Positions 18,501-60,629 of a stretch of 64,000 bases of DNA are shown here, piece after piece (position 1 is the first letter of the stretch; the number at the start of each line of letters is the position of its first letter). Source of the DNA: Polytrichum commune (Eukaryota; Streptophyta; Polytrichopsida; Polytrichales; Polytrichaceae); contig OX485806.1 of NCBI GenBank assembly GCA_950295325.1, positions 13,826,001 through 13,890,000 of the forward strand, read 5' to 3'. The position numbers were made by a program, and so were the translations under genes. Below the pieces are notes generated by a model. That model saw only the letters and a program-made list of their open reading frames with translations. It had not been told where the DNA came from and ran no database searches.

Positions 18501-19170
18501 GTTAAACTTAAGCACAATTCCAAACAATAAAGTGACACTAAAGACCCTCAACAACCCACCTATTTACATCATCGGTAACAACAACAACAAAAAGCTCTAT
18601 CAACATGTAACTCCAAATGGTAAACCACAATAACATAGGGCGTAGGAAAGGTTGAAAAGATAGGCACATGTGAAGTATATGTGAAGTCACCCTTCCTTAA
18701 GAGGAGGGTAGGCGCTTAGTAGGTACCTTTTGGGTGTGGATGAGGCCTTGTATGGTATGGAGGGAACATGGGTGTCAGCGGGAATAGGGGAAAAACAACG
18801 CCATTCATATCTCTTTTAAATAAAATAAAATATTATTGGTGATATAGCAGCTACTAGTAGGGGTTTCCCATTAAATCTAGGCCTGCATGATCCTCGTCCA
18901 ACACAATACAACACAACACAGCAGAAGGAATCCTTTGATGAGTAGTTCGTTAGCTAGGTCTGCTTGTCGCCCTTTCCAGCTTTTACCCCCCGGTCCCCAT
19001 CTCTGACCGCTGGGTAACAGTCACATCTGATGGGTAATTATCCCGCCAGCTGGCAGCTGGGGCTGGGCCACGTGGGCTTAGTTCAGTTCTATCTTCCTCA
19101 TTTGCTTATTAAACTGTGGGTGTGCCAGAAGGGATGGCCGTGGTTAATTTTGTTGTTTCCTTAATCGGTG
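18501..19170. other. Intergenic, nothing recognised
   Basis: About 18600-18640 carries one arm of the foldback family seen at 5134-5320. A moderately G/C-rich patch at 18950-19090 has no open frame of note. Confidence 0.4.
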
Positions 19171-19197
19171 TTTAGGGTTTAGGGTTTAGGGTTTAGA
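19171..19197 (+). repeat. Interstitial plant telomere repeat
   Basis: Three and a half perfect tandem units of TTTAGGG. This is the standard plant telomere heptamer and, on the complement, the telo-box AAACCCTAA. Confidence 0.85.
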
Positions 19198-24005: not shown

Positions 24006-26176
24006 AGCCTGTTAGTGTGCCCAACTACTATCAAAATTTTACAGTGGAGAATCTTTCAGAGTTTTCAGTTGTAGATGTGACAAACGTGCGACCTTTCATG
24101 GATAAACTAAACAAGATGCTAATTTCCAAAACCAACAAACATCATTAGAAGACAATAAATTCTTACTTTCACAGTATGATATATGGTGAAAACATATTCA
24201 TGGGAATTGTTTTTTCTTTCAAAACTCCATGGTGTTTGATGTTGTGAACAAAACATCCTCTCATACTTATGTATCTTCATTGTGTGTACAAATAAACATG
24301 TTACACTAAAATAAGCCATTTTCCTCAAAAAAAAACTCGATAATACAATATTTGAGGCCGAAATGTCATGTTATGCAAAATTCAACATTCGGAGAATATG
24401 ACATTTTCTTGCATGACCAAACGTGTCATACTATCATTTGATAACGCTCTCCCTCTTTAATTTGACACGTTTGATTGCCGTATTATCCGAAGTGAATGTT
24501 GTATATATTCTGGGTACAGCAGGACAATGGCCAACATGAAACGAGCGGCTGGTCTCCATCCTTTCTTTAAGTTTAGAGACCCACACAGATCTTGCCTTTC
24601 TGCACAAACTGACTGGCCCCTGGAAATGGTCTCACTTAAAATGTCTCGGGCAACAACTTCCTATCTGAAGCAGCAGCAGCAGCAGTAGTAGTTGTAGTAG
24701 CAGCAGTGGCTAAATTTGAATCCAGCCTTCGGCTTGGGCTTGGCACTGTCTACAGATATTATTTCATTAGAAAGTGTTCCTATTAAAGATCACGTCGGAA
24801 TTTCAACGTGGGAAACAGGCCTTGGAGCTCAGGCTGATCCATAATATGTGACACGAGGAGCACTACTCTCTCTCTCTCTAGCTATTTCAAGTTGATGACC
24901 ACCGTACAGTTAGTGGGCATTGGAATTTAGGGTTTCGGAGCTCAACGTGAGTTATTTACGACTAGCAATCCAAATATCTCGCAGCCGGGCCTTCCAGCAT
25001 GTGTGTTAGATAAGGTGGAGGGCATCTATAACAAGATAGAATAAGAGAGTTTTCCATGTGTTTAGGAGGAGTGATAGTGGGGAAATTAGTTTTCTAGCGA
25101 AGAGAAACATATCCAAAGGAGAATGCATTTCTATTTTGATTTTTTCATGAATATGGAAATTAATTGCTACAAATTTTGAAGAAGTGGAGTTTAAGGTAAC
25201 ACACAGTCAATTTATAGGTTAACCCATAATCACTCGTCTGAATGTTGATTCTTGGCTACGACAGCGGTCAAAAGTCTTATGAGGGTTAGGTCAAGGCATC
25301 CGTAATTGATCACTTGCATTTGACCGCTCATTAGGGTCATGTAATGCTAACATAGATGAGATCTATGTTATATGGGCGAACAAACTTTAAGTTTATGTGT
25401 TGGCGGCTTGTGATTGATTACCCCCATATGAGTTTTGACAATTGTCGTAGCCAAGAGGTAGCATTGCGATGAGTGGTTATGGGCTAACTTGTGTCACCCT
25501 TAAATTTATGCTTTGAAATTTGCAGCAATTTCTGTATTCATGATTGTTTTTTATTAAAAAAAAAATTGCATTTCTCCTTAGAATTTGTTTCTTTTCACAA
25601 GAATAATATTTCGTTGTTATTACACCTCCTAAACATATGCAAGCCCTCCTATTTCATTGGTTGTAGATGCCTCGACCATAATCAATCACAAGCCACCACC
25701 GCACAAACCTTAACTCCGTTCGCCTAAAATACATAGATCTCATCCATGTTGGCACTACACGACCTTAGTGAGCAGTTAAATGGGCCTGGTCAACTATGGA
25801 TGCCTCGACCTTAAACATGTGTGGCTAACGAAGGGAAGATCATGTGCCCCATGGTTAGTTGTTTGGTTAAGTACCCTACAATTGGAGCATCGATTTTACC
25901 ATTTTGTAGTACAACTTTTAAGGTAGATGAGTTGTAAATGGTCACTTTTTGAGACTAGCCAAATTCTCATGAGGCCCACTTCACATGCAAGACTAAAGGC
26001 CCATGACCATTGCATTCTAAGATCTCTCATGTTGGTGTTGCATAAGATAGTAACACAAGGTGTATTGTGAAGTCATTCAACGCAAAGAATCTTGTGTGTA
26101 TGTGTGTCACATGTGGCATCACTGTTGCCATCAAAGTGCATCACACTAAGGTAAGGTAGACGAGTCTCGTTGCAAA
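24006..26176. other. Intergenic, nothing firm
   Basis: (CT)n at 24869-24881 and a CAG/TAG-rich patch at 24668-24710. The region 24500-24970 is less AT-rich than its surroundings, but no convincing frame was found. Inverted motifs around 24360-24480 (ACGTGTCATACTATCATTTG) may be transposon ends. Confidence 0.35.
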
Positions 26177-26390
26177 CTTTGTGCACCCTTTCCCCTTTTG
26201 TGTTCAATATGGAAGCAATTTCACCTACCGCCATGTGTGTGCACTTTCCCCTTCGAAATCCAAAGCTATACTTGTCAGCAAAGGCTTCCATTACAGGTTC
26301 AATAGCTAATTCGATCAAGTGCCGAACAATCCTGTCAAATATAATTGGTATTCCCAACAACCTTTTACCACCTCTGGATTGAAAGATGAA
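26177..26390 (-). pseudogene. Group II intron maturase (reverse transcriptase) fragment
   Basis: On the minus strand about 70 codons read GGKRLLGIPIIFDRIVRHLI, then ELAIEPVMEAFADKYSFGFR and RGKCTHMAVGEIASI. This is the conserved N-terminal reverse transcriptase block of mitochondrial group II intron-encoded maturases (the LGIP, AIEP and SFGFR motifs). The catalytic YxDD region and the maturase domain are absent. It lies directly after the nad7 fragment on the same strand, which suggests that both came from mitochondrial DNA. It is a truncated, non-functional nuclear insertion. Confidence 0.75.
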
Positions 26391-26399
26391 AACATGGCG

Positions 26400-26960
26400 A
26401 ACAAGTGAGCTTTTGTTGTTTTTTGGATTGAGATCATGAGGGAGGACATAGTTGACGATCATCCACTTTAATCATATATGCCACTAGGCATTTGATTAAG
26501 ACATTGCATGATGATTCGAATACTTTGTTGCATCTCTTCAATACAAATACAATAACAATCATAACAATCTCCTCTGGTACCTACAGGTACATCAAATATC
26601 AATTGGTTATAACATCGTAAGGTGTTGATTTTCGCAAATCCCAACACATTCCTGAGCCTCTTAACATTACGACACTAAATCCCCAATCCAAAGCTTGTTG
26701 TGCAGTGGCAGTACCAATATCAACTAATCGTTGTTTCCAGATACGATTGTTGGTCAAAATTTCTTTGATTTTATCAATACGAGAAGCAAATTGTTGTGTA
26801 AATAGAAAAATATCTTCACTTAAGCCTAAAGGCATGTCTTGTGGAACTCCCAGCAGGTTTGGCCTCTTTTGATGTGTAGTAAAATCCAAAAACAAAAACT
26901 GCATTGGTCTACAAATTTCTTTATGAACCCATGCCATAAGAACGAGATCAAGGTGTTTGA
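26400..26960 (-). pseudogene. nad7: Nuclear insertion of mitochondrial nad7 (complex I subunit) fragment
   Basis: On the minus strand this reads as the middle of NADH dehydrogenase subunit 7: [53 protein letters not shown], then in other frames [33 protein letters not shown] and DDRQLCPPS. The homologue is a highly conserved 49-kDa subunit of complex I. Several small insertions or deletions and stops break the frame, so this is a NUMT, not a transferred working gene. It runs without interruption through the region where seed plants have an intron, which means either that the donor lacked that intron or that the source was spliced. Confidence 0.85.
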
Positions 26961-28539
26961 AGCTCAAATTGTTGAAGAAACTCTCAAATAAAGATAGCCA
27001 ATCTTAAAGTGCTTAGTGTTGAGTTGATGTTAAGCATTAACTATTTGAAAATTCCAACCAAATGAACTATCATATTGATTCATAGAATAACATGTAAAAG
27101 TCTTCATTTTAAGAGAATATTGGACCATTTTACACCCAAGTAGGTGTTTAGATTAAAATATTTTCTTGTGCTCAAATTAAGATGTATCGTTATAGAGTGT
27201 TGTGTGGTTCCACACTTTGAGTGCCAAAAGCTAATTTCCACGTTAGGTTGAAAATTGTCTTGACCAATGTAGATGCGACATGTGGAAATTCTAATTCCAA
27301 ATTGCAATTATTTTGTGTCAATCCAGATAATAGAATATGGCATGAGTCAATTGACTTGAATGTCTCGTCCATAAGTCATGTAGCAACACTATTGTCATTA
27401 GTGCACATCCCATCATGCCACTTGTGGATTTGTTGATATAAGTTGATTACATCCACCACTCTAATTCCAAGGCATTTGGAAATTGATTTCGTCCACTCTA
27501 TCTATCTATCTATCATAACGAAGTCCACTCTCATTATAGCATGAAGACATCTTTTGGTAAAGTTCTCCAAGACACAATCTAGCCGTTTTGAGATTTCTGT
27601 GGCCACGAATTGATTAAGAGACTTCTCAACAAAACAATCAAGCAATTTTGATATTTCTGTGGCCAGAAATAGTTTGATGTGGCTAACTTGGAATGCGTGG
27701 CAATCAAAAGGAACAAACGCATTAATTGGGCACCTCACAATTGTGAGCCCTGTCAAAGATATTCAAAGATTAAAAATGTTGGTATTTGTGACTTGCATTG
27801 ATCAACAAAAAAATCTAATTGACACCACCCCAATACTAAATCATTGCGGCTTACCACAACTCAAATCATAGACTCGCCATCGAAATTGGCTGGTGGTTAA
27901 CTATCCCAATCTCTAGAGATGATAGATTATGCTAGTTCTGCTCTGACGATGTAGTTGAAATGAAACACACTTTATTATGTAGTGTCCTCTCTACAACTCC
28001 ATCAGAGATACGTTTCCTTCCATGTTTCAAGTTTTTCTTCCAATTGGAACCGTCAAGTTGAGGCGACTGCCCCCCATTACTCTAGGGAAATAGCCTTTCC
28101 AACACCATCTTGATGTACTTCTAGTCTCATAAGCCTTTTGGCTTCCTGGACTTTAGAATCAATTTCATTTCAGTTCATTTCACTTGACTTTAATGAGTTT
28201 ATGATGTACGTCATCCTGCTTTTACTAAGATACTCAACTTGTCCAAGGACCACTGATGGGCAGGTTTTTGAATCATCTTGCACTGACAGGTCCTTCAAGA
28301 AATATCAGAGAGCTGCTGGAAAATCCCTGAGAAATAAGGCATTGCAAACTCTTGGATCAAATTCTTACCTGATACAATTCAACTGCGTTAATCCCATACA
28401 ACTATACCTTCTATTTAGATACTTTGTGGACAAGCCATGACCCTTGGGACTGTCCAAGAAGGTACGTAGGCACTTCCAACTACACACAATTTTGACAGTT
28501 GAATCAAATTCGGTTAGCAGTTTTGATTCACACGACTGT
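26961..28539. other. Intergenic with a short internal duplication
   Basis: At 27586-27668 a block of about 70 bp containing ATTTCTGTGGCCA is duplicated. On the minus strand it reads as two related peptides starting VATEISK. (ATCT)n lies near 27497-27514. About 28111-28175 matches 5920-5985. No gene was named. Confidence 0.4.
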
Positions 28540-40387: not shown

Positions 40388-40533
40388 CATAACATTACTC
40401 AGATTTATAATAATGTTGTGTGGGACTAACAATATTCCACAAAATATTCTCCATGTTCAAATTGAATGTGGAAATATTATGTGGAATGCTACCAATCCCA
40501 CATAACATTATTATGAATCCGAATAATGTTATG
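40388..40533. mobile_element. Foldback MITE A
   Basis: The arms start CATAACATTACTCAGATTTA (left) and, read inward on the minus strand, CATAACATTATTCGGATTCA (right). They continue with ATAATAATGTTxTGTGGGA for about 55 bp each around a short loop. No open frame is present. Confidence 0.7.
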
Positions 40534-40848
40534 AAGGGGCATGGGATTTTTCATCTACTTTGCATTCTTATGTACGCGTTTTATTCCGAGATACCTTGTA
40601 CTAGGATATAAGTATATTAGGATTTATGCATGAATTTTGGATAATTCTAATCGTCAATATGACATACATTAATTTGTAAAATTATACAAATATGATGGTT
40701 GGCAAACATGGAATACAACACGTTCAAAGTTGTGATTGTTGTGTTGTTGTTTTCATGTTATTGTTTGATGTTTTTATCCCGACAAGTGCACATCCCTTAT
40801 TATTTTTGGACAAGTGATTTGTCTAAACATACTTAAATGTCAATTATT

Positions 40849-40973
40849 GTGTTCCCAATGTGGTAGGTAAGGGATGTGGAATTCCCACAACAATCCGTTG
40901 CAATTCCAAATAGGGGAGCACAAGGGATTGTTGTTGGAACTTTGTGTCCCCCACCTACCACATTGGGAACACA
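40849..40973. mobile_element. Foldback MITE B
   Basis: TGTGTTCCCAATGTGGTAGG at the left and its exact inverse CCTACCACATTGGGAACACA at the right. Pairing continues, with mismatches, through AACAATCC to the centre. It has no relation in sequence to the foldback at 40388. Confidence 0.75.
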
Positions 40974-53410: not shown

Positions 53411-53760
53411 CTAATCGCATGTTTATTCCTTACTTACTCGCAAGAGTCTCATGGTCTGTCCCTCAAAAAAGAAGCCACCGTAGAGCCACATCATATTTTT
53501 ATTTTATTTTTTGGAAGCTTGTAAAAAGTCATTGATACATGAAAGAGGAAACACATTTTCATGTCCAGGGTGTTGCCGATTGCAAGGATCAACCATATCT
53601 TTAGTGGTGTGGGAGACACCCTGAATCAAAAGTGTTTCAAAATTGACATTCAAGCTCCATATGAGAGAGACTCATCATCTGGTCAACAAACTTCAACCAT
53701 CTCTAGAAGAGGCATATGAGCTCCAAATCATAGTAGAAGTAGGATAATTGAAAACACTAA

Positions 53761-53880
53761 GGGTTGGTTTCCATGTAGCCGCTCGCCCACCAGATTCTAG
53801 CGAAAATGTAGATGCCACCAGGTGGAATCTTCATATCCACTAGAATCTGGTGGGCGAGCGGCCTAGATGGAAACTAACCC
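53761..53880. mobile_element. 120-bp hairpin MITE flanked by TAA (PIF/Harbinger-like)
   Basis: The arms of about 42 bp (GGGTTGGTTTCCATGTAGCC then GCTCGCCCACCAGATTCTAG, and the inverse at the right) are nearly identical. TAA lies directly on both sides (53758-53760 and 53881-53883). The transcript of either strand would fold into a long hairpin. Confidence 0.75.
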
Positions 53881-53883
53881 TAA

Positions 53884-58339: not shown

Positions 58340-58440
58340 TAAAAACTAGTTTTTTTTGCTTGTCCTACTAAAATGTATGGACTAGGCTAACCTTGCATAA
58401 TATAGATACTAAATATTATCATTATACTAACATTGTATTG
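58340..58440 (+). repeat. Dispersed repeat R1, fragment
   Basis: TTGCTTGTCCTACTAAAATG and GGACTAGGCTAACC match 6217-6260 of R1 copy 2 in the same orientation. It directly follows the SARD4 pseudogene. Confidence 0.45.
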
Positions 58441-58449
58441 TTGTATTAC

Positions 58450-58473
58450 TATATATATATATATATATATATA
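58450..58473. repeat. (AT)n microsatellite
   Basis: About twelve AT units at the outer edge of the inverted duplication. The opposite arm has a shorter run of the same kind near 59780. Confidence 0.9.
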
Positions 58474-59095
58474 ATTTCCATCCATTGCAAAATACAAAGA
58501 ATTGAGTTGAACACAATGGATTCATAGATAAAATAAATGTCCATGTCAGGTGTTTCAAGTGCAATGCTCATATCCAGAGATACCAAGAATTGAAGAACTT
58601 GAAAGATTACCGTCATTACCGTATAGTGCTCAAAGAATATGAAATTAAAGTTGTTGCTGCAATTGGTTGCTTTGAGAATTTCCGCCAAAACCATGTTCAG
58701 AATGAGCTTAAGAAATTTGACATGCCCGAAAAAATAAGACAATTAGAGTTATCCTTTAACTCAAAGGAGTTTGGTAGGGAGTTTCTTACAAAACCTTCCA
58801 TGTTTGGCAAGCTTGAGGTGCATGCGTCGGAGGTCGTGTGGAGGTTTGAACCGATATAGAATGTTATTGGTTCAAACCTCCACACGACCTCCGACGCATG
58901 CACCTCAAGCTTGCCAAACATGGAAGGTTTTGTAAGAAACTCCCTACCAAACTCCTTTGAGTTAAAGGATAACTCTAATAAGCATTGAAATGAGGATAAT
59001 CATTATAGTTTCAAATTTTTAAGAAATAACCTTTGAGGAACTACAATTTTGGTCTTTAAGATTAGACTTAGTGAGAATGGGTGAAAATAATTACA
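58474..59095 (+). repeat. Left arm of a large inverted duplication, with an unknown coding-like fragment
   Basis: It matches 59390-59770 in inverted orientation, apart from the palindrome inserted at 58744-58977. At 58507-58743 on the plus strand there is an open frame with a Cys pair (RCFKCNAHIQRY) followed by ELKNLKDYRHYRIVLKEYE, then VAAIGCFENFRQNHVQNELK and KFDMPEKIRQ. The other arm encodes a clearly related peptide, with changes mostly conservative. No known family was recognised. A stop lies in frame just before the fragment in both arms, so it may be an internal or last exon. Confidence 0.6.
58744..58977. mobile_element. Perfect 234-bp palindromic insertion
   Basis: The identical arms extend over 58742-58852 and 58869-58979 (111 bp, no mismatch) around a 16-bp loop, starting TAGAGTTATCCTTTAACTCA. 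The sister arm of the surrounding duplication lacks it and reads GACAATAAGCATTG at the site. This places the insertion between AT and AT, giving an AT flank on both sides. No coding role is evident, although it extends the upstream frame to MFGKLEVHASEVVWRFEPI before a stop in the loop. Confidence 0.8.
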
Positions 59096-59389: not shown

Positions 59390-59770
59390 CCGCAGATTTC
59401 TTCAGCCATTCTTGCTCAATCTAATACTATGGACCAAAACTGTGGTTCTTCAAAGGCCATTGCTTGAAAATTTGAAACAATGACAATTATTCTCATTTCA
59501 ATGCTTATTGTCTCGTTTTCTCGGCCATGTCAAATTTCTTGAGCTCGTTCTGAACATGATTTCGGTATAAATTCTCAAAGCAACTAGTTGCAGTAGCAAT
59601 CTTAGCCTCATATTCCTTAAGTGATATGCGGTAGTGAAGGTAATCCTTCAGGTTCTTCATTTCTTCGTACCTCTGGACGTGAGCGTTGCATTTGAAACAT
59701 TTGACATGGATATTTATTTTATCTATGAGCTTATTGTATTCAATTCAACTCCTTGTATTTTGCAATGAAT
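59390..59770 (-). repeat. Right arm of the large inverted duplication
   Basis: Read on the minus strand it runs GCAAAATACAAGG, then the coding-like fragment CFKCNAHVQRYEEMKNLKDY and SLKEYEAKIATATSCFEN, then QNELKKFDMAEKTRQ and a stop. After this it continues as AAGCATTGAAATGAGAATAA with no palindrome. About 295 bp of unrelated AT-rich sequence separate it from the left arm. Confidence 0.6.
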
Positions 59771-60629
59771 GAAAAAAAAACATATATATATTGATTAAAA
59801 TATAATATATATACAAATATCATAATACATAAAATATAAACCAATAAAACATCCAAAATTAAACAAATATATCATAACAATAAAAAACTACAAATTGAAG
59901 GACGTACTTGCATATTATCATATAGGTATCATATAGGTATATACATGTTGGCCAATTATCCAATCTTCCAACTGTTGGTGAATGTATTACATGCATACGT
60001 CTGGATAGTCGACAAACTCTTTTGGCACACATTTCTCATCCGTCTTGATGATGATAATGTACGAGGGAGAACTTATATAGAAAGCTCTATGGATGTCGAC
60101 ATTCTTGTAACCCTACACATTCAAAATCATATAAAAATGTTATTAATGAAGCGATGTTCTTCACCCTCATTACCAAAATATGACAATAAAAGAAAATGAA
60201 CATGATGTTAATGGTTATTGAAAATAACAATAAATACATAAGCATTCAAACAAATGCAGTGTACGTTTTAATATGATACAATATACTATTCAAGAAATTT
60301 AAAAGTGAATTGTAGATTACTATTTTGTAACACTCAATGAACAGTGAAAATGATGCTTTTATAATACTCCAAAAAATGAAAACCTATAGATTGCAGCATG
60401 AAGGCGTTGGTGATATCATGTTTGGATACGATATGTTGAGATTTTGATGTTTTCAATAAATGACTTGAGTTCTAGTGTAGGGTTTTTATATGCAATGAAA
60501 AATATGCAGGATTTGAATGAAAAGACTAGGTTCACTTTGTTGAATGAATTGATGAGGGAAATTGTATTTTGTGGGTTGTTAGATTTTTTATGTTTGGAGA
60601 AGGAAAAATAAAAATTATATGATCATGTA
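59771..60629. other. Intergenic, very AT-rich
   Basis: Nothing recognised. Confidence 0.4.

Follow-up and report, generated by a model that had tools for sequence, protein, structure and literature searches.

A recently inserted, centre-deleted copy of a palindromic MITE family within an older inverted duplication, and relatives broken near the element centre

Elements of the Pangu group (PHIS superfamily) are characterized by an ANT target duplication and by TIRs that usually begin with AG or GG; the hosts listed for them in the survey include two algae and no land plant (PMC4482050). A near-complete palindrome with a tiny loop, on the other hand, is typified by Made1/hsa-mir-548, which shares with the element described here the predicted capability to form hairpin RNA, but which is mariner-related and 80 bp long, whereas the present family has an AWT target and is typically 318 bp long (PMC1784062).

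The window, by which we mean the whole 64-kb stretch of DNA that was analysed (C4:13826001-13890000), contains a palindrome in which the 111-bp arm at 58742-58852 is matched, after a further 16 nt, by its exact reverse complement at 58869-58979; this bears out the preliminary description of the locus. If the single mismatch between 58853 and 58868 is tolerated (a G-U pair in RNA), the arms extend to 115 bp (58742-58856 and 58865-58979, both drawn on the plus strand) and enclose a loop of 8 nt (58857-58864). The runner-up among exact inverted repeats in the 64-kb window (arms within 5 kb) measures 23 bp. Two more near-palindromic, MITE-like elements with diverged arms are found at 40388-40533 and 40848-40973, and a Tourist-like MITE at 53760-53881 is bounded by GGGTTGG ends and flanked on both sides by TAA.

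The palindrome was used as a query against its own genome (407.8 Mb in 64 contigs), giving 1403 unscored first-look candidates, the best 40 of which were scored (126 match rows) and resolve into 39 loci besides the window copy. Of these 39, 26 enter the tables as two-ended elements, L032 has two ends but a larger centre, and the remaining 12 are one-ended. Most two-ended copies share a length of 318 bp and the form AGAGTTATCC...GGATAACTCT, and the arms of two-ended copies, about 155 bp each, align as inverted copies nearly to the centre. The window copy, delimited by comparison with these relatives, occupies 58745-58976 (232 bp, AGAGTTATCC...GGATAACTCT) and is a centre-deleted member of the typically 318-bp family. 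Across the whole genome the exact 24-base end occurs 57 and 56 times on the two strands (113 in total; reversed control 0 and 0), and a related, shorter end motif that is followed by another base, AGAGTTATCCTV, matches 129 and 133 times (262; controls 0 and 1), so that related ends are also common. A second set of 36 loci was taken from the first 100 matches listed of the exact 24-base end pattern including the left AWT; by-eye assignment placed 15 of them in a repeat marked by the motif GGTAAT and recognized 7 exact two-ended copies, 3 two-armed copies that are diverged or have an altered end (L060, L062 and L073) and 11 one-ended copies. Copies with clean borders, for which a genome search had been suggested, were thus found, with 3-bp duplications at other loci. 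Elements of less than 800 bp with terminal inverted repeats, no coding capacity, a target duplication of fixed length and multiple dispersed copies are MITEs, and on these sequence comparisons the palindrome is a copy of a multi-copy MITE family that is palindromic almost from end to end. An exact 20-mer from the palindrome gave no match in the collections of viral contigs and genome contigs, and a distant search of plasmids with one palindrome arm was likewise negative. The one palindrome-arm frame tested had no Pfam match, and a literature search on six short element motifs listed three papers, all on other subjects.

The RNA fold predicted for the palindrome has an energy of -224 kcal/mol, whereas 200 shuffled sequences average -57.9 (sd 4.5), which gives a z of -37. 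So stable a fold would suit a selectively conserved hairpin RNA gene or small-RNA precursor; we nevertheless regard such a gene as very improbable, since no match in the 64-kb window attains the gathering score of any Rfam family and since L010, the sole full-length relative folded, also folds onto itself almost completely and resembles the window copy in this simply by being a palindrome. No function beyond self-propagation is needed to account for the element.

A duplication of AAT or ATT flanks 31 of the 34 two-ended copies in both sets together. In the first set with the window copy added, identical 3-bp flanks are seen in 24 of 27 two-ended copies (15 AAT, 9 ATT; L032 is absent from this table), and these represent 21 independent sites, because L011, L013 and L014 share their flanks, as do L019 and L023. 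All 24 matching copies have C or T immediately before the duplication and A or G immediately after it; in the three non-matching ones (the window copy, L009 and L030) the left flank is ATT and the right flank AAT. Outside the GGTAAT repeat, the second set adds seven exact two-ended copies, all with matching AAT or ATT, where the left AWT belonged to the search pattern and the right AWT did not. Inside that repeat the two-ended L072 and L077 are mismatched, with AAT on one side and ATT on the other. The middle base of the target was always A or T in the copies examined. At the window copy itself, the occupied and empty sites and the family pattern together place the left duplication (AAT) at 58741-58743 and the right one (AAT) at 58977-58979, both on the plus strand; one extra T at 58744, which belongs to this copy, follows the left AAT, and its duplication is therefore not clean. 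The borders had earlier been read as AT, wrongly, for the relatives duplicate 3 bp and the element starts with AGAG: the AT is the visible part of the AAT duplication, and some target bases fall within the palindrome as drawn, namely 58742-58743 with the extra T in its left arm and 58977-58979 in its right arm.

The MITE is hosted by the left arm (58410-59085, plus strand) of an older inverted duplication, the sister arm of which (59401-59838, minus strand) is without it. Of 388 sites compared between these two arms, 75 differ. The sister reads GACAATAAGC, and the occupied arm reads GACAAT-T-AGAG...CTCT-AAT-AAGC (GACAATTAGAG...CTCTAATAAGC), a net gain of 236 bp, with the inverted repeat of the MITE flush with both insertion junctions. 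The empty target, AAT on the minus strand (ATT on the plus strand), lies at 59507-59509. This empty site and the cleanly bordered copies elsewhere support the view, already put forward in the preliminary description, that the palindrome is an insertion. Both arms of the duplication carry a 79-codon open frame (58506-58741 and its sister counterpart) with dN 0.15 and dS 0.72, a ratio of about 0.2; no Pfam family matched it. The TAA stop of the sister frame overlaps the empty target, so the sister frame ends where the MITE sits in the occupied arm, and the occupied frame continues for 38 codons into the first palindrome arm. This extension was rejected as coding sequence, having no Pfam match and being the expected product of an insertion at a stop codon.

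The surrounding genes are one for a mitochondrial carrier (plus strand, to about 56.4 kb) and one of ornithine cyclodeaminase type (minus strand, from about 63.0 kb). Elsewhere in the window, a fragment of nad7 (49-kDa subunit) is located at 26076-27003 on the minus strand, beside a weak reverse-transcriptase match below the Pfam cut-off, and is possibly mitochondrial DNA in the nucleus. A short interstitial telomere run lies at 19170-19196, where GTTTAGG is repeated 3.9 times; the plant telomere repeat unit is TTTAGGG, of which GTTTAGG is the same unit read in another frame. This run, the nad7 piece with its neighbouring reverse-transcriptase piece and the gene content point to a plant nuclear genome.

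The window copy is identical (0/232 differences) to any of five 318-bp copies, L010-L014, from which the 86 bp between two TGAACC repeats are removed; these five represent three independent insertions. One TGAACC survives at 58847-58852 (plus strand), as comparison with the 318-bp copies reveals. The twelve remaining 318-bp copies, cut in the same way, show 2 to 6 differences from the window copy. Its identity to L010-L014 indicates that the window copy is very young, one of the origins considered in the preliminary description. Age bounds depend on a substitution rate of 7e-9, and the bounds are not relied on here. What the alignments show is a recent insertion with a central 86-bp deletion between 6-bp repeats. 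It could be argued instead that the palindrome dates back to the host duplication, that the sister arm later lost it and that gene conversion kept the palindrome arms alike: flanking AAT repeats would permit the deletion, and some arm conversion has taken place in the family. The absence of any difference over 232 bp from copies at other loci, set against the 75/388 differences between the host arms, makes this history very improbable.

Conversion was examined on its own account, the preliminary description having proposed that it keeps the arms identical. Arm-to-arm differences within a copy are 1.33 per 104 sites as compared with 1.90 for permuted arms (p 0.0006; n=21 copies, the window copy included), a comparison that leaves out L016, L030, L008, L009, L013, L014 and L032 (indels, a divergent arm, duplicates of L011, a large centre). 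At position 16 the minor base is present in both arms of ten copies and in a single arm of none, a pattern that points to at least one arm-to-arm conversion in the history of the family, with a contribution from subfamily structure; the conversion signal rests largely on this position, which is also a subfamily marker. Steady conversion is argued against by position 22, unequal between the arms in 9 of the 21 copies, and by minor bases at positions 81, 84 and 92, found in one arm only (3, 2 and 2 copies, respectively). The family-wide signal thus lends the proposal some substance, but for the window copy youth alone suffices, and its perfect arms are mainly due to recency, with arm conversion in the family adding to it.

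A single foldback event, or the capture of filler DNA at a double-strand break, would likewise give perfect arms, a short loop and a border of microhomology size; it can hardly be credited here, where the same sequence and ends recur at other loci with 3-bp duplications and the inverted repeat is flush at both junctions. Perfect palindromes are typical assembly artefacts, and a foldback artefact of assembly or library had been among the possibilities raised for this locus, but with both flanks continuing in register with the sister arm, and with all 232 bp common to three independent insertions elsewhere, such an origin is, as far as the sequence goes, scarcely tenable.

Many members of the family have lost one arm. 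Twelve of the 39 first-set loci consist of one arm with an AAT or ATT outer border followed by DNA that is not common to the twelve. A full second arm, sought within about 9.7 kb of each, was found for none of them (12/12), and the sole other match was 69 bp (81%) to the element centre in L042, about 4.9 kb away in a 10-kb stretch. In the second set, 11 of the 36 loci are one-ended within the approximately 900 bp searched per locus. The element centre lies at 159.5, and by script 18 of the 23 one-ended copies break at nt 145-164; the figure becomes 20 of 23 near the centre after two corrections by hand (L063 from 125 to 152, L059 from 129 to 162), made because the ungapped extension had halted at a small indel or an insertion, as gapped matches show. 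One breakpoint (67) is out of range, and 20 of the 22 in range fall within 145-174, which is 30 of the 219 possible positions, though a P value derived from this is not to be taken literally, since a uniform null is assumed and the loci of the first set had been ranked by their similarity. A target duplication at the broken side is seen in 6 of 23, not clearly above background at a control rate of 0.148.

Hairpin tips are cleaved by nucleases of the Mre11/SbcCD type, and the simplest reading of the one-ended copies is that a break starts at the hairpin tip and that repair removes the other arm, usually together with its border. We would give an even chance to the wider proposition that dispersed palindromic MITEs act as centre-break sites, where the tip of an extruded hairpin is opened or skipped and the broken end joins DNA nearby or far off, so that flanking sequence is lost and a one-ended scar remains, and that a shorter version of the element, lying within another repeat in the second set, seems to break at a different centre of its own. 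No claim is made that such one-ended scars are unreported.

The shorter version is that of the GGTAAT repeat, in which 15 of the 36 second-set loci (among L057-L089) share a common flank ending in GGTAAT and a shorter piece of the element. In 14 of the 15, the match between left piece and element runs up to nt 84-89, and in L072 it stops at nt 40, so that the left break is nearly constant. The right break varies: the sequence picks up again at many different points in one or other of two right flanks, which themselves come from two of the fifteen loci, at offsets of 1, 1, 1, 6, 19 (three loci), 21, 29, 42 (two), 52 (two) and 222; for L087 the right side was not found. A separate element of 169 bp, L073, is a palindrome centred at about nt 80-88. 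Were the GGTAAT loci descended from an L073-like element, their deletions would start at its own centre, a reading that is suggestive only, owing to shared ancestry (several loci have the same right end) and to the flanks, the two sides of the repeat being partly inverted copies of each other.

Taken together, the locus is very probably a young, non-autonomous MITE that inserted at AAT in an older inverted duplication and lacks its centre, in a family that seems fragile at the centre. A DDE transposase would have inserted the MITE at the AAT target in the left arm of the duplication, and the window copy or its immediate source would then have lost the central 86 bp between the TGAACC repeats, leaving the 8-nt loop. 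Deletions occur between short repeats across hairpins, and slippage across the hairpin is the probable route. The geometry of the palindrome would also make the family fragile, with losses of a whole arm starting near the centre; we surmise that an extruded hairpin is cut at its tip, or skipped in replication, and that the end is joined elsewhere to give a one-ended copy.

As an element the window copy is ordinary, one more young MITE; the record of centre breaks is the interesting part. Dozens of near-identical palindromes with a known centre, whether intact, centre-deleted or halved, are available in one assembly, and could make the family a natural record of palindrome breakage. Its copies allow a test of whether eukaryotic palindromes break at their tips and of how far repair erodes the flanks. 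If a transposase were to agree with the AAT/ATT target and the AG ends, Pangu-like mobility would be extended to what seems to be a land plant.

A transposase was looked for through DDE_Tnp_4 (PF13359), which gave 990 candidates in this genome, at least 150 of them over the cut-off and many with open frames of more than 450 aa. At least 150 such matches represent a large population of PIF/Harbinger type in its own right. Inspection of five of the 150 listed loci revealed neither AGAGTTAT ends nor inverted ends of any other kind accompanied by a 3-bp duplication; by eye, among the matches listed (the first 100 per end pattern), no pair of AGAGTTATCC ends surrounds a listed PF13359 locus at an element-like distance. 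No autonomous partner was thus found among the loci inspected.

Several known groups can be set aside on their ends and targets. Helitrons (no target duplication, 5′ TC, 3′ CTRR) are ruled out by the 3-bp duplication and the AGAG...CTCT ends, and the TA target of Tc1/mariner (Stowaway) elements does not agree with the sites observed and would need a further loss of 4 bases in the sister arm. The Tourist-type MITEs of PIF/Harbinger are similar in having a 3-bp A/T-rich duplication, and DDE_Tnp_4 genes are plentiful here, but their duplication is TWA whereas that of the present family is AWT, which rules them out (PMC4482050). The ATons of Aedes aegypti are likewise small, non-autonomous elements with TIRs, an A/T-rich target and no autonomous partner tied to their ends; they insert, however, at the dinucleotide AT, which would fit the window copy alone and not a family that duplicates the three bases AAT or ATT (PMC3422177). 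ISL2EU, of the PHIS superfamily, shares the A/T-rich target, but it duplicates AT, its TIRs usually begin with GG and in the survey it is confined to animals; the AWT target and AG ends exclude it (PMC4482050). Pangu differs in having TIRs of 11-40 bp and in being a group defined with its transposase, whereas the arms here are about 155 bp and none of the loci inspected ties a transposase to the ends (PMC4482050). The AWT duplication (AAT/ATT) and TIRs beginning with AG nonetheless agree with the features given for Pangu (ANT; AG or GG), by which the family may be termed a MITE that is Pangu-like in its target and first TIR bases and a putative member of the PHIS superfamily (PMC4482050).
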